Source of the DNA: Verrucomicrobiota bacterium
GTDB taxonomy: Bacteria > Verrucomicrobiota > Verrucomicrobiia > Chthoniobacterales > SZAS-18
NCBI GenBank assembly: GCA_019241085.1
Contig: JAFAXH010000144.1
Span: 1 to 64,000, forward strand
Length of the DNA: 64,000 nt
Reading direction: 5' to 3'
Shown here: positions 50,793 to 60,630 of the stretch, piece by piece
Numbering within the stretch: position 1 is the stretch's first letter
How the letters are laid out: each line of letters opens with the position of its first letter
Program-made: the position numbers and the translations under genes
Notes under the pieces: generated by a model
Told to the model about the DNA's origin: nothing
The model's database searches: none
Seen by the model: only the letters and a program-made list of their open reading frames with translations

Positions 50793-51059
50793 TTACTTTC
50801 GGCGTCCGGCAATAATCCGGTCATACTCGCTGTGATGACCGATCCAGAACCAAACGACATCGGTGCCGTCCTCCACGGCGGCAGCGCGATAATGGATGCC
50901 GATACGAACTGACCACATCCGGCCCACCTTCTTGAAGTGCAGCGATGGATGCCTCGGATCGGCTTTGAGCAAGAGGTAGTTCTCGTCCGCGAGCCGTTGG
51001 ATGGCTTCGGGAAGCTGGGCGTAGAACTGCCAGAACTTCGGATTCGCGCGGTGCCTCAC
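50793..51059 (-). CDS. RelE/ParE-like toxin-family protein
   Basis: The 88-residue protein has the compact RelE/HigB fold pattern: MRHRANPKFWQFYAQLPEAI, KKVGRMWSVRIGIHYRAAAV, and VVWFWIGHHSEYDRIIAG, where the basic and aromatic C-terminal residues match the active region. Its start codon overlaps the stop of the upstream 66-residue ORF by 4 bp, as in toxin-antitoxin pairs. Target and activity (mRNA cleavage at the ribosome) are inferred from family only. Confidence 0.8.
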   Translation of the reverse strand: MRHRANPKFWQFYAQLPEAIQRLADENYLLLKADPRHPSLHFKKVGRMWSVRIGIHYRAAAVEDGTDVVWFWIGHHSEYDRIIAGRRK

Positions 51060-51256
51060 AAATCCGTGCAGCGCCCCTCCCGCAAATCACGGATAGCCTC
51101 GTCGGCGAGAGCGTCCAGGTGCCCGGCCGCGACATCGGCCTCGAACTGCTTGTCCCACGCCGCGGCGTCAAACTCGGAGAACCAGGTGCGAAAGGCGGAA
51201 AGCTCCTGCCGTGAAAGCTTGCTGACCGCCGCCTCGATTTCGTCCACAGTGCTCAT
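51056..51256 (-). CDS. Small acidic partner of the RelE-like protein (candidate antitoxin)
   Basis: The 66-residue protein is acidic and helical (STVDEIEAAVSKLSRQELSA, AAWDKQFEADVAAGHLDALA, DEAIRDLREG). The DALADEAIRDLREG C-terminal helix is typical of proteins encoded next to RelE/ParE toxins. It lacks an obvious DNA-binding domain. It overlaps the toxin-like gene by 4 bp. It is upstream of the toxin gene, the usual antitoxin position. Confidence 0.75.
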   Translation of the reverse strand: MSTVDEIEAAVSKLSRQELSAFRTWFSEFDAAAWDKQFEADVAAGHLDALADEAIRDLREGRCTDL

Positions 51257-52683: not shown

Positions 52684-53040
52684 ATGCAACTTCCTCTGGA
52701 AATCACCTACCGCGGCGTCCACAAGAGCGACGAACTCGAAGCGCTCGTCCATGCCAAGGCAGCGCACCTCGACAAGTTTTGCGACCACATCTCGCGCTGC
52801 GATGTCATCATCGAACAGCCCAATCATGCCCAGCAATCCGGCAGCCCGTTCCGCGTGCGCATCGACGTGACCGTGCCGCCCGGCCACGAACTCGTTGCCG
52901 ATGAGCGCCCGACCGAGCACGAGATGCACGAGCCGCTGACGAAGCTGGTGAATGATGCGTTCAAGAGCATGGAGCGGCAGCTTAAAGAACTCGTCCAACG
53001 CCAGCGCCGCGACGTGAAGCATCACGAGAACGAGCGGTGA
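52684..53040 (+). CDS. hpf: Ribosome hibernation promoting factor (HPF/RaiA)
   Basis: The 118-residue protein has the HPF/YfiA beta-alpha-beta-beta-beta-alpha pattern: PLEITYRGVHKSDELEALVH, CDVIIEQPNHAQQSGSPFRV, RIDVTVPPGHELVAD, then LVNDAFKSMERQLKELVQRQ. It is of the short form, lacking the C-terminal dimerisation domain of long HPF. It binds the 30S decoding region in stationary phase. The integron-like cassette begins about 70 bp after its stop. Confidence 0.88.
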   Translation: MQLPLEITYRGVHKSDELEALVHAKAAHLDKFCDHISRCDVIIEQPNHAQQSGSPFRVRIDVTVPPGHELVADERPTEHEMHEPLTKLVNDAFKSMERQLKELVQRQRRDVKHHENER

Positions 53041-53111
53041 GATAGAGTTTGGTTTTTTATGCGAACGGAAGCCGCTTCTTCGGTGGCAATCCCGTTTCGC
53101 CGAATTCAAAG

Positions 53112-53491
53112 TTAGGCGTATCCCATGTCGCATAGTAAAACCACGAAAAGGGGGCGCTCGCATTACGTCGAGCGCTGGAATCCACAAGCGAAGCGGTTCG
53201 TCTTGTCGTGCGCGCTATGTGGACACACCGGTTTTAGCCCGAGCATCCTCGAAGAAGGCTTTGCTTGCACGCTGGCGAGGCGAGCAATCATGGAGGAGCT
53301 ACAGTCCGTGCTCAAGCCGCTGGAGCTTGATGCGTTCGGCCGTTGCGTCGTTTGCTCCGCAGCGGCGAAATCGTAATGTGCGTCTCCACCGTAACGCCTA
53401 ACCCGGCGCTGCAGCGAACAGGCTCTGCGATTGGCGTCATTTTTGTATTCGAGCTTTACTTTCGCAGAGCCTGTCGCTGAGCTTTGAGTCG
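53112..53491 (+). mobile_element. Integron-type gene cassette
   Basis: The 380-bp unit begins at the TTAGGC of a GTTAGGC core (53111-53117), carries one ORF starting 13 bp later in the plus direction, and ends in a complete attC-like site whose R' box is GTTAGGT. This is the standard architecture of a mobile gene cassette. No integrase gene is present in the window, so it would be a cassette without an integron platform. Confidence 0.75.
53125..53376 (+). CDS. Small cassette-borne protein with two CxxC pairs
   Basis: The 83-residue protein begins MSHSKTTKRGRSHYVERW and carries CALCGHTG near residue 29 and CVVC near residue 76, a spacing that suggests a zinc-binding fold. No known family is recognised. 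The ORF starts 13 bp after a GTTAGGC core and stops 19 bp before the attC-like site, the tight packing expected in integron cassettes. The DNA is less GC-rich than the neighbouring chromosomal genes. Confidence 0.7.
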   Translation: MSHSKTTKRGRSHYVERWNPQAKRFVLSCALCGHTGFSPSILEEGFACTLARRAIMEELQSVLKPLELDAFGRCVVCSAAAKS

Positions 53492-53497
53492 TTAGGT
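53396..53497. other. attC-like recombination site
   Basis: The 102-bp site has R'' GCCTAAC (53396-53402) and R' GTTAGGT (53491-53497), matching RYYYAAC and GTTRRRY. Inside are long imperfect complementary arms (GCGAACAGGCTCTGCGA against TCGCAGAGCCTGTCGC) with one or two unpaired bases, which is where attC sites carry extrahelical bases. The terminal loop of about 30 bases is AT-rich. Identified by structure only. Confidence 0.8.
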
Positions 53498-53530: not shown

Positions 53531-53830
53531 ATGGGCAAGATGCGCTGCCGTTGCGGCTTTGTGTTCAACACCACACCACAGCCAGAACCGGACATGTGGA
53601 TCGCCATCAAGGACACTGAACATGAAGCGTTCTTGGAAGCAGAGATCGAGGCGGATCGCTTGTCAAAAAACTACCAAGAGCACCAAGAACGCGTCGGTGA
53701 GTTGGACCGGCGGGCTTTTGCCTTGCGGACCTCGCTCTATAACTGCCCGGAGTGTAGCCGAATCTATTGGTTCCGTGGTCCAGACGGTAACATGGAGGTT
53801 TTTGCTCCCGAGCCTTCGCCGGATTTATCA
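53531..53830 (+). pseudogene. Second cassette-like gene, 3' end lost
   Basis: The reading frame starts 40 bp after the attC-like R' box with MGKMRCRCGFVFNTTPQPEP and continues through a helical section (EADRLSKNYQEHQERVGELD) to LYNCPECSRIYWFRGPDGN. This is a small protein with CxC and CxxC zinc-type motifs. After about residue 98 the composition changes, and the frame stays open by chance until 54175 inside the osmC gene. No second attC-like site is seen, so the 3' end of this cassette seems to have been deleted and fused to chromosomal DNA. Function unknown. Confidence 0.6.
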
Positions 53831-53960
53831 TGTCGCGTTGCGCGTCCGACACGCGCACTTGCCTACGCGGCTGCCGATTCCAAAGCACGAGCGTCGCCAG
53901 CCGACACGGACGGCGGCCATTTCACATTCACCAACGAACCGAAAAAACCCCATCCATCTT

Positions 53961-54395
53961 ATGCTACACAAAGCTTCCGCCCAATGGCAGGGCGGCCTCA
54001 AGGACGGCAAAGGCGTGCTCTCGACCGAGAGCGGCGCGCTGGCGCAAAATCCGTATTCCTTTCGCACGCGTTTCGAGGAGCACGGCTCCAAGGCGGGCAC
54101 GAATCCGGAGGAACTCATCGCCGCCGCGCACGCCGGCTGTTTTTCCATGGCCTTGAGCGCCGAGCTGGGCAATGACGGCATGACGGCCGAACGCATCTCG
54201 ACCACCGCGACGGTCGAGCTGCACTTCATCGACGGCAAGCCGACGGTGACGAAATCGCACTTGCACCTGCGGGCAAAAATCCCCGGCGCGGACCGCGAGA
54301 AATTCCTGGCCGCCGCGCACCGCGCCGAAACGGGCTGTCCGATTTCCCGGTTGCTGAAGGCGGAGATCACGCTGGATGCCGACCTGGAAAGCTGA
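53961..54395 (+). CDS. OsmC-family peroxiredoxin
   Basis: The 144-residue protein has both active-site cysteines of the OsmC/Ohr superfamily: PEELIAAAHAGCFSMALSAE and AETGCPISRLL, with the N-terminal KASAQWQGGLKDGKG strand. Such proteins reduce organic hydroperoxides. The start at 53961 matches the family; the frame is open upstream but that part is not conserved. It overlaps the MFS transporter gene by 20 bp, so the two are co-expressed. Confidence 0.92.
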   Translation: MLHKASAQWQGGLKDGKGVLSTESGALAQNPYSFRTRFEEHGSKAGTNPEELIAAAHAGCFSMALSAELGNDGMTAERISTTATVELHFIDGKPTVTKSHLHLRAKIPGADREKFLAAAHRAETGCPISRLLKAEITLDADLES

Positions 54396-55985: not shown

Positions 55986-56900
55986 GTGCCCGTCTTCGTC
56001 AGCTACAACAGCCTCCACGCGGAGTTTGTCCATCGCGATCTTGTCCCGGTGCTGCGTGCCGCTGGCGTTGACGAGGTGCTGATCGACAAAGAGCGCTTCA
56101 CCGCAGGTCGGCCGCTGATTGGACAAATGGACGCCGTGCAAGATCGCGCCAAGACCTCGCTGCTGGTGCTGACGCCCGGTTATCTCGCCAGCGATTATTG
56201 TTTGCACGAAATGCGCCGGGCGGTGGCGAAAGACCCGACGTTCGCCGAGGGAGGCGTCCTGCCCGTCGTCGTAGAAACGTGCATGCTGCCGCCTGAATTG
56301 CAGCCGTTCGGCAGCCTCCTGCGGGTGCATCTCACCGACCGGACCGACCCGACGGCATGGGCGAGCATCCTGAAGGCTTTGGCAGCCGATGGGTTGGGCG
56401 TGGACGCGCCGCGTTGGCTGGCGAAGCGCGCGGAATGTGAAAAGCTACTCCAGCAGGGATTGCCGGTGAATCTTTTTGTGCGCAACGATGGGGCAAACTG
56501 GAAGGTGCTGCTGGATTCCTTGGAAAAGGACTGCCGACTGCGGCTGCCCACGGTGGACCTCGAGGACGGCTGCACCGCGTCGCGCGAGGGGTTGATCCGG
56601 GAAATTCTCGATAAACTCAAGGTGCCGGCAATGGTGCCGAAGAAGCCGAATGACCTCGCGGTGCTCTCGCGGCAACTACGCCAGGGTGGGCCGCATCTTT
56701 TGGTCTTCCGGCATTTCCATTACGCCCGCGACCGGTTTCGTTTCTACGAGCGCGATTTCTTCCGCACACTACGGAACCTGATGGACCAGCAGCCGCGGGC
56801 GCTGGTGCCGCTCTTCCAGTCGCGCGAGCCGCTGGCTTCGTTGGTGAACGATTTGCTGCCCAACGATTCAAAGCTGCGAGCGCAGCTCGTGGAGTTGTGA
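55986..56900 (+). CDS. TIR-domain protein with degenerate STAND-like C-terminus
   Basis: Starting with GTG, the 304-residue protein has an N-terminal TIR domain (residues 2-135): MPVFVSYNSLHAEFVHRDLV, IDKERFTAG, TSLLVLTPGYLASDYCLHEM. Glu75 sits where NAD-cleaving TIR enzymes have their catalytic Glu. Residues 158-304 resemble a small STAND/AAA fold in outline (NLFVRNDGANWKVLLDSL, LPTVDLEDG, then HLLVFRHFHYARDRFRFYER and PLFQSREPLASLVND). However, the P-loop Lys and Walker B acidic residues are absent. It is followed 13 bp later by a membrane ATPase gene, so a two-gene operon is likely. Role inferred: TIR effector or signal generator in defence. Confidence 0.85.
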   Translation: MPVFVSYNSLHAEFVHRDLVPVLRAAGVDEVLIDKERFTAGRPLIGQMDAVQDRAKTSLLVLTPGYLASDYCLHEMRRAVAKDPTFAEGGVLPVVVETCMLPPELQPFGSLLRVHLTDRTDPTAWASILKALAADGLGVDAPRWLAKRAECEKLLQQGLPVNLFVRNDGANWKVLLDSLEKDCRLRLPTVDLEDGCTASREGLIREILDKLKVPAMVPKKPNDLAVLSRQLRQGGPHLLVFRHFHYARDRFRFYERDFFRTLRNLMDQQPRALVPLFQSREPLASLVNDLLPNDSKLRAQLVEL

Positions 56901-56913
56901 TTTTCGCGCGCGG

Positions 56914-59205
56914 ATGAAATCGCTGCCTCGCCCAGAGCGTCTCGGCCTGTGCTGGCGGGACCATCGCGCGGTCTGGGGGTGGGTGAAGGTGCAGTATCGA
57001 GACCCTGGGTTTTTCGAGGGCGCGACGAGGCCGCTGAGTCGGTGGCAGGCGTTGAAAACAATCGCCGTGTTTTATAGCCACATCGGCCCTTGGTGGTTGC
57101 TCCTCGGCTGGGCTGTTTCGTTCCTGCTGAGGATCTCGCTGCATCCGAGTGGAGACATCCATTCTGCTGCTCTCGGAGCGTTTGCATCTACCGCGGTTGG
57201 TCTCGCGGGTGGTCTCGCGGCTGGTCTCGCGGCTGGTCTCGCGGCTGGTCTCGCGGGTGGTCTCGCGGTTGGTCTCGCGTTTGGTCTCGCGGTTGGTCTC
57301 GCGTTTGGTCTCGCGGGTGGTCTCGCGGTTGGTCTCGCGGCTGGTCTCGCGGTTGGTCTCGCTGCTGGTCTCGCTGCTGGTCTCGCGGGTGGTCTCGCGG
57401 GTGGTCTCGCGTTTGGTCTCGCGGTTGGTCTCGCGGTTGGTCTCGCGGGTGGTCTCGCGGTTGGTCTCGCGGCTGGTTTCGCGGTTGGTCTCGCTGCTGG
57501 TCTCGCGGATGGTCTCGCGGTTTGCAGTGGCTACATCATCACGAACTGGCGTCTTTACCAATTTCCCTCGCACTCGGGTTTCCTGTGGACACGACCCAAG
57601 CGCGGAAATTGGCGCCGGCATCCGGTTTTCAAAAACCGCTTCTGCCCCACGCCTTTTCCGAGGCTGGAGAAATGGCTGGTCGATTGCTGGGAGCAGGAGC
57701 CGCGCGAATTGAGCCGGCAGCTTGACCGACTCATCGCACGCAGCCAATACCAGCGCCCAAGAGCGCTCCGGGCGAAAACCGCCATCCTGGCGCGGGAAAC
57801 CAAAACGCTACCCTCGCTCGCCAACCTGGGTCGTCATTTGGAATCTTTGCCGACGGGCGAAATAGGCTACCTCAAGGAAACGAGCGAACTGCGCGCCAAA
57901 GCCGAGCGGATCGCTGAGTGGCAACGCCAAGCCGACGCTGCACCCTCGGCGTTGATCCGACATGATCGGCTGGAGCAGGCGCTCGAAGCGATGGCTGGCT
58001 TCCGCGGTTATGTCAGCGGGTGCGCGGAGCCGCTGGCTTCGGAATTTCTGCGCGCCGCGGAGAGTTGGGAGGCCAATCTCCGGCGTCAGATCGACGCCCT
58101 CCCGCGCGAGGTGCCCGATTTTTTCAATCCCAATCTCGCCGTCCGCGCGGGAATGGAGGCTTTTGTCCGCCGTGACGACCTCCTGGCCGATCTCCAGCAG
58201 CGTTTGCGCAACCCGGCGGGCGGCTCGGGGCTGCTGCTCTACGCGCGGCGTCGCATGGGCAAATCGACGATTTTGCAAAACCTCGAACGACTGCTGCCGC
58301 GGGAACTGGCGGCGGTGTATGTGTCCATGCAAAATGCGGAGGCGGCCACGTCTGAGGCGCACTTTTCGGCGTGGCTGGGCGAAAAGCTGGCCAGCCTTTT
58401 TCCCAAAGCTGATCTTACGCCCATCCCTGCGGACCTTGCCGCCTTGGCTAGGACGTTGCGCCGATTGCAGGAATATCTCGATAATTCAGACTGCCGCGTG
58501 CTCATCGCAATCGATGAATTCGAGGTGATCGACGAGCGCATCGGCGAGGGGATGATGAGCGAGCGACTGCTGGGCATGGTGCGCGATTGCATCCAGACGC
58601 ATCGGCAAATCCGCTGGTTGTTCAGCGGAGTGCATCATGTCTCGGAACTGCCCAACGCTCGCTGGAGTTCGTATTTAACCGCCTTCCAGCAAATCGAGGT
58701 GCGGCCTTTCAGCGCGGCAGAGACGCATCAACTCCTCACCGAGCCGCTGAAGTTTGCCAACGCCTTCGGAGACCGGACGCCACCGCAGGCTGACTTTTTC
58801 GTGAAGAACGAGTTCTGGGCACCGGGAATGATCGAGCGCATCCAGCACGAATCGCAGGGCTGGCCGGCCTTGGTGCAGGGTATCGCCAAGGAAGTCGTCG
58901 CCGCTTGCAACCGACGCAAGGTGCTCCAAGCAAACGACGCTTTGCTGGACGAAGCGCTCGACGCCGTGCTCACGAGTGTGGACGGCACGCTTCAGGAATT
59001 GCTGCTCCAGCAGGCGCGGCAGGAACCCGAAAAGAGCGCGAGCCTTTTCATCCGGGCCTTCCGCACCACTGAGGAACAGTCGCCGCCGGCAGAGGATGCG
59101 GTGCGGCAGCTTCTCCAGCGGCACGAACTGGTGGTGCCGACGGCATCTGGCGCTTGGCGGCTGCGTGTGCCGCTAATGCAGCGCTGGCTGGAGAAAAAAG
59201 GCTGA
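56914..59205 (+). CDS. Membrane-anchored STAND/archaeal-type ATPase with (xGLA)27 repeat segment
   Basis: The 763-residue protein has a short cytosolic N-terminus and a hydrophobic segment HIGPWWLLLGWAVSFLLRIS. A 108-residue tract of 27 uninterrupted xGLA tetrapeptides follows (residues 95-202), then a soluble region with coiled-coil character (about 250-400). An ATPase domain ends the protein: LLYARRRMGKSTILQNLERL (P-loop Lys450), Walker B VLIAIDEFEVID (Asp534, Glu535) and IRWLFSGVHHVSEL. The C-terminal part resembles the winged regions of ATPase_2/STAND proteins. The repeat has GxxxG spacing throughout and could span the membrane several times. No known domain covers the N-terminal half. 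Best guess: effector or sensor paired with the TIR protein. Confidence 0.82.
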   Translation: MKSLPRPERLGLCWRDHRAVWGWVKVQYRDPGFFEGATRPLSRWQALKTIAVFYSHIGPWWLLLGWAVSFLLRISLHPSGDIHSAALGAFASTAVGLAGGLAAGLAAGLAAGLAGGLAVGLAFGLAVGLAFGLAGGLAVGLAAGLAVGLAAGLAAGLAGGLAGGLAFGLAVGLAVGLAGGLAVGLAAGFAVGLAAGLADGLAVCSGYIITNWRLYQFPSHSGFLWTRPKRGNWRRHPVFKNRFCPTPFPRLEKWLVDCWEQEPRELSRQLDRLIARSQYQRPRALRAKTAILARETKTLPSLANLGRHLESLPTGEIGYLKETSELRAKAERIAEWQRQADAAPSALIRHDRLEQALEAMAGFRGYVSGCAEPLASEFLRAAESWEANLRRQIDALPREVPDFFNPNLAVRAGMEAFVRRDDLLADLQQRLRNPAGGSGLLLYARRRMGKSTILQNLERLLPRELAAVYVSMQNAEAATSEAHFSAWLGEKLASLFPKADLTPIPADLAALARTLRRLQEYLDNSDCRVLIAIDEFEVIDERIGEGMMSERLLGMVRDCIQTHRQIRWLFSGVHHVSELPNARWSSYLTAFQQIEVRPFSAAETHQLLTEPLKFANAFGDRTPPQADFFVKNEFWAPGMIERIQHESQGWPALVQGIAKEVVAACNRRKVLQANDALLDEALDAVLTSVDGTLQELLLQQARQEPEKSASLFIRAFRTTEEQSPPAEDAVRQLLQRHELVVPTASGAWRLRVPLMQRWLEKKG
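57196..57519 (+). repeat. 27-copy, 12-bp in-frame minisatellite (xGLA)
   Basis: Twenty-seven consecutive 12-bp units of the form GxTGGTCTCGCG/GGTCTCGCGGNT encode xGLA, where x is Gly, Ala, Val or Phe (Asp once). Unit length is a multiple of three, so copy-number change keeps the frame. Base variation is confined mainly to the two codon positions that specify x and to one GCG/GCT exchange. Confidence 0.95.
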
Positions 59206-60524: not shown

Positions 60525-60630
60525 TGTCATCCTGAGCGAAGTCGAAGGATCTTTCGTGGCAAAGCGGAGAGAGATTTTCCACGTCTGACGCTTGGCACCG
60601 AAAGATCCTTCGACTTCGCTCAGGATGACA
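60525..60630. repeat. Inverted repeat of the GAGCGAAGTCGAAGGATC family (perfect arms)
   Basis: Arms of 32 bp (60525-60556 and 60599-60630) are perfect reverse complements with the TGTCATCCTGAGCGAAGTCG end. The family is also at 61-120 and 38299-38402. It lies in the leader between the oxidoreductase and lpxB genes. Confidence 0.92.

Follow-up and report, generated by a model that had tools for sequence, protein, structure and literature searches.

An integron gene cassette preceded by a repeated attI-like sequence in the chromosome of a Verrucomicrobiota bacterium

The 64,000-nucleotide stretch of DNA analyzed here (the window; contig JAFAXH010000144.1 of assembly GCA_019241085.1) carries an integron gene cassette between two host genes. 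Its most probable explanation, to which we assign a probability of about 0.72, is that the integron integrase IntI assembled a mini-array of two cassettes here, at an attI-like site behind an S30AE gene, the site being one of at least 12 dispersed over the chromosome. The integrase would have been supplied in trans by an integron at another place in the genome, the first cassette would have entered by recombination of attC with the attI-like site between the G and the TT of GTTAGGC, and the second cassette would be an older insertion that has since lost its attC. The cassettes would be co-transcribed with the host gene that precedes them, or else transcribed from the attI-like sequence itself, termed the head in the following. 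We observed the attC site, the cassette layout, the repeated heads, an intI remnant, IntI proteins of sister genomes above the curated cut-off and a co-directional placement behind host genes; that IntI used the heads as attI is what we infer. One part of the finding is ordinary, namely a true cassette in an integron-bearing lineage from which the local integrase was lost. The unusual part is that, in several genomes, cassettes at many places in the chromosome are preceded by repeated attI-like heads.

The preliminary description of positions 53111 to 53497 listed a GTTAGGC core, an ORF with its stop, 19 bp and a 102-bp imperfect palindrome with GCCTAAC and GTTAGGT at its ends. Direct reading of the sequence agreed with the whole of this layout, with the core at 53111-53117, a gap of 19 nt between stop and attC and the palindrome at 53396-53497; the ORF was placed 13 bp past the core, while its ATG lies 7 nt past it. 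The GTTAGGC 7-mer alone has six matches in the window where 3.9 are expected and is not significant, whereas the whole attC site is. Its bottom strand folds far better than shuffled sequences (z = -4.27). When the site was compared to its own genome by BLAST, 15 matches spread over many contigs were found, the closest other site having 87% identity over 102 bp (E = 4e-30). An alignment of 14 sites has a conserved left arm, GCTGCAGCGAACA, and a conserved right arm, TGTCGCTGAGCTT, with two left-arm bases outside the helix. Bases left out of the helix are typical of attC sites. The stem contains 22 compensatory cells compared to 5.9 ± 2.0 in shuffles, and a shift of the pairing partner by one column abolishes the pairing.

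A covariance model was made from the 14 aligned genomic sites, the window site included, and found 29 attC sites in the genome, of which those 14 match by construction; the window site was accepted and ranked second. Homologous attC sites were thus present at 28 other places in the genome, and each of six genomes of the family has between 5 and 37. The ORF is followed by an attC with R'', L'', L' and R' boxes and a folding bottom strand. Because homology, folding and covariation agree, the attC is judged to be genuine and positions 53112-53491 to be a real integron cassette with a full attC, as originally proposed. Its cut points between G and TT are presumed from established integron biology.

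Coordinates of the features at the cassette locus (positions of the window)
Feature	Position	Strand	Basis
S30AE / ribosome hibernation factor family host gene, directly upstream	52684..53040	+	Pfam PF02482, E = 3.6e-12
Type B attI-like head, ending in inverted core-like boxes	53053..53117	+	Common to ten other cassette starts
Gene cassette 1, TTAGGC through the G in the R' box of attC	53112..53491	+	Sequence; presumed G/TT cut points
Cassette 1 ORF, 83 aa, two CxxC pairs	53125..53376	+	Homologues in two Oscillospiraceae MAGs
attC of cassette 1	53396..53497	+	Folding, homology, covariance model, covariation
Coding remnant of putative second cassette, attC missing	53531..53941	+	ORF list; cassette status inferred from position
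OsmC-like host gene, downstream	53961..54395	+	Proteins 50-61% identical encoded elsewhere in the order

The 83-aa cassette protein matched no Pfam family, and a search of plasmids, IMG/VR contigs and 388 genomes of the phylum recovered only the ORF itself. In GTDB two homologues with 55-62% identity were found, both in Oscillospiraceae MAGs (L107 and L108), and no attC was seen around the gene in either. The relatives belong to the gut Firmicutes and share the N-terminus MSHSKTTK(K/R)G and two CxxC pairs. These homologues and the two invariant CxxC pairs show that the ORF represents a real gene family captured as a cassette, and the protein is probably a small zinc-binding protein; its structure model has a pLDDT of 75. 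Other first cassettes in the genome encode TIR, Bro-N and YefM/YoeB proteins together with many unknowns, which is the usual cassette mix. The first cassette behind the head on contig C128 (L135, 1573-2584) encodes a 336-aa SIR2-type-like protein without a Pfam match at 0.01; with the TIR cassette of contig C119 it hints at NAD-related defence cargo.

The interval originally reported was too short on both sides, as the head upstream and the attC-less cassette remnant downstream belong to the unit. From its position, the ORF starting at 53531 looks like a cassette minus its attC. Its frame continues into the OsmC region, to 54175; the attC covariance model had no match at the remnant, and no relatives of the ORF were found in 195 genomes of the phylum and in plasmids. 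The name OsmC for the downstream gene is our own reading. The S30AE-OsmC neighbourhood expected before insertion was sought in 20 OsmC loci and found in none of them. Further away in the window, a RelE/ParE-like toxin is paired with a small antitoxin-like ORF on the minus strand (50793-51256), and on the plus strand (55986-59205) there is a TIR-like ORF (55986-56900), and the protein of 763 aa encoded next (56914-59205) combines a long membrane-type GLAxGLA repeat with a half that is ATPase-like; these two are possibly a defence pair.

For comparison, we listed the sequence that precedes the initial core at each cassette or array of the genome. Eight cassette starts, that of the window among them, were found to have about 65 bp in common (type B head), ending ...GTTTCGCCGAATTCAAAGTTAGGC and with a mean column identity of 77%; some are alike further, to about 120 bp upstream. 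The GTTAGGC at the 5' end, taken to be a plain cassette core, ends this repeated attI-like element. A profile built from the seven remaining heads, stripped of the core, matched 53055-53109 (E = 5.7e-14), and this was its only good match within the window. The model of all eight copies had three more matches in the genome (contigs C115, C128 and C120; E from 1.7e-6 to 0.0024), and in sister genome G003 it had one, on C580 at E = 3.9e-4. Nothing in the head model requires a cassette or an attC downstream, and yet in all four cases a cassette-like stretch comes immediately after the head, together with an attC or what remains of one.

Type B heads therefore occur at 11 loci of the genome, the window and ten others. 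At the loci examined the head is always first in the array, and the flanks further upstream are unrelated at most of them; the heads on C127 and C161 have a common upstream flank, and a segmental duplication may account for this pair instead. Heads lacking a cassette were not seen in this genome, which counts against dispersed capture since pre-existing sites should sometimes be empty. Across the compared loci no common downstream element was seen, as a transposon would have, and the unit was rejected as a transposon on this ground. As a DNA hairpin the window head does not fold significantly (z = -0.7 and 0.3), although folding is strong for the head at C580 of G003, with z about -7. The genome also contains many dispersed self-complementary repeats of about 130-150 bp, REP/MITE-like and unrelated to the heads among the matches listed, on at least C107, C12, C19, C23, C77 and C120 and at about 60525-60630 of the window. 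The ends of contigs C153 and C35 (L146, L147) have an identical sequence of 144-146 bp in common, inverted at both ends of C35, which suggests assembly or element ends.

The heads end in inverted core-like boxes 5-6 nt apart. In the window these are GCCGAAT (53099-53105) and, after the spacer TCAAA, GTTAGGC, a simple site that ends in GTTRRRY directly before the first cassette. A position adjoining intI, which the window head does not have, was found for two other heads, one on C119 (type A) and one on C229 of G003. The C119 site between the intI remnant and the first cassette, GCTAATAACATAGTTAGGC, has a layout similar to that of the window head, and further copies of this type A head, at 76-77% identity over about 120 bp, stand in front of cassettes on contigs C130 and C118 (E = 1.8e-18 and 6e-18, respectively). 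On C229 of G003, an intact intI is separated from the first cassette by TTTCGTCTAATAAATAGTTAGGC, and the same 23 bases also head the intI-less G003 arrays C297 and C226; a model of the other G003 heads had the C229 attI as its top match, at E = 0.03 only.

In genome G001 a head some 137 bp long occurs at C59, C226, C351, C19 and C87, with more model matches at C116, C292 and C175, and genome G002 has its own head type at nine array starts. The G002 heads (C166, C62, C119, C100) contain an inverted repeat at a fixed distance from the core, with arms that covary (TTATGC/GCATAA, TTATCC/GGATAA, TTATAC/GTATAA). A joint model of G001 and G003 heads did not recover the window head, showing that the head families have diverged. 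Heads are more alike within genomes than between them, which points to copying inside each lineage. Taken by sequence the heads look like attI, and the type B head of the window is tied to proven attI only indirectly and not strongly, by its layout and by the G003 C580 head.

The absence of an integrase from the window extends to its whole contig. The unit was called an orphan, and this is correct locally; genome-wide it is not, with 29 attC sites and an integrase remnant on C119, the only locus where an intI, although truncated, adjoins an array. TIGR02249 identified two XerC/D-like proteins and one short fragment in the genome. The fragment, from C119, covers the first third of IntI and stops before the catalytic half, and it appears to be frame-shifted near the N-terminus. 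Because it lies between a parB-like gene and a cassette (TIR gene and attC), the C119 locus represents the wreck of a complete integron. IntI above the curated TIGR02249 cut-off was found in four of seven genomes of the family, G003 among them, and integrons are on record in Verrucomicrobiota (PMC8618304); a cassette in this background, initially regarded as unexpected, is thus not surprising. The genome is a draft MAG of 170 contigs with 87% completeness, of Verrucomicrobiota type by its gene content, and an intact intI may be missing from it. As the genome keeps only the truncated intI on C119, cassette capture here is probably inactive now and the window unit frozen, unless sequence absent from the assembly holds an intact intI.

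All 10 type B loci that could be scored in this genome have an upstream gene co-directional with the cassettes, as do 5 of 5 loci in G001 and 8 of 9 in G003. These counts rest on a GC3 heuristic, which gave no clear count for G002; for the window, where it had picked a longer gene further up, the upstream gene was assigned from its Pfam match. The start of the window head is 13 bp past the S30AE stop. Expression of the cassettes by read-through from the upstream host gene, or selection for read-through, would explain this placement.

In G001, heads occur in tandem with a period of 135-137 bp: three at C226, two at C59, two at C116 and one and a half at C351. Each repeat spans from a TTAGGC-like core to the next core and is, by its sequence, shaped like an ORF-less cassette ending in an attI-like site. 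Recombination between two attI sites is established for IntI (PMC8946536; PMC10127599), and a unit between two attI1 sites was excised at 100% (PMC12901181). As IntI recombines pairs of attI, IntI-driven movement would be a reasonable account of how heads spread. A more tentative proposal, which we hold to be possible and would not favour, is that the heads of this family are mobile ORF-less units and that IntI moves attI-bounded circles, of which the G001 tandem copies would be the trace, into intergenic sites behind host genes, where each seeds a mini-array. In mostly openly accessible literature we found no paper on several or tandem attI sites per genome.

Several other explanations of the window locus were weighed. 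IntI is established to insert cassettes off target (Loot et al. 2024, as cited in PMC12444791), and a circular cassette put at an ordinary attG site, which has only a short core, would give a plain integrase-less cassette. About half of the array starts in the genome (e.g., C42, C110 and C146) are without a clear head and would suit this. However, it predicts a fully random 5' flank and nothing in common beyond the short core, whereas at the window 65 bp before the core are conserved, in register at 11 loci with mostly unrelated upstream flanks; off-target insertion is therefore improbable here. An equally improbable history would leave the window as the remnant of a complete integron from which intI was deleted. 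Such decay is seen at C119, where truncated intI lies beside attI and a cassette, but all other heads of this genome, including those of the window, C130 and C118, lack an intI relic, the window head begins 13 bp behind the S30AE stop, and a dozen separate integrons with similar attI would be needed in one genome.

Instead of being a docking site, the head could also be an ORF-less cassette that bears a promoter, has an unusual recombination site and was inserted as other cassettes are. The core-to-core tandem heads of G001 would fit, and gene-less promoter cassettes are known in Vibrionaceae according to the accessible part of PMC11014356. This is rather unlikely, since at the loci examined the heads are invariably first in the array and the same head type adjoins intI, in the attI position, on C119 and in G003. 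Least credible of all is that draft assembly split one large array. The MAG is indeed fragmented and many attC lie close to contig ends, yet the window unit lies in the interior of a 70-kb contig, with host-type genes on both sides, the C130, C128, C115, C120 and C110 loci are internal to contigs of 43-108 kb, and three other genomes have the same pattern.

Capture at dispersed attI-like sites, which we prefer, resembles several known systems. CALINs and single attC sites without integrase, in IntegronFinder terms, are likewise chromosomal cassettes without a neighbouring intI (PMC9024848; PMC8618304), but their definition has no head and the units here begin with one. Insertions at attG sites also place cassettes at many chromosomal positions away from the integron; as cited in PMC12444791 (Loot et al. 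2024), these sites have only a short consensus in common, in contrast to heads of 65 to 137 bp. Xanthomonas CALINs form arrays at several fixed loci besides the integron, often with a decayed intI, and for their seven loci the accessible part of PMC12444791 does not report a common attI-like head such as that present here. In class 1 and 2 integrons attI-bounded or delta-attI cassettes have attI travelling with cassettes, and IntI1 excises units bounded by two attI (PMC12901181), although there the attI piece is 3' of the ORF in one mobile array, and here the heads are upstream at scattered chromosomal loci.

In the standard integron model there is one integrase, one attI and one promoter, and the position in a single array sets expression. 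If the present reading is true, cassettes could be captured and expressed at many addresses, through a dozen or more attI-like heads that each follow a co-directional host gene, and if the heads are mobile, one integrase would serve many attI and cassettes would be expressed from many host operons and not from one Pc promoter. Sites of attI outside class 1 integrons are poorly described (PMC9024848), so that such heads would be easily overlooked. The reading would also account for some of the cassettes without integrase that are at present classed as products of decay or as off-target insertions.
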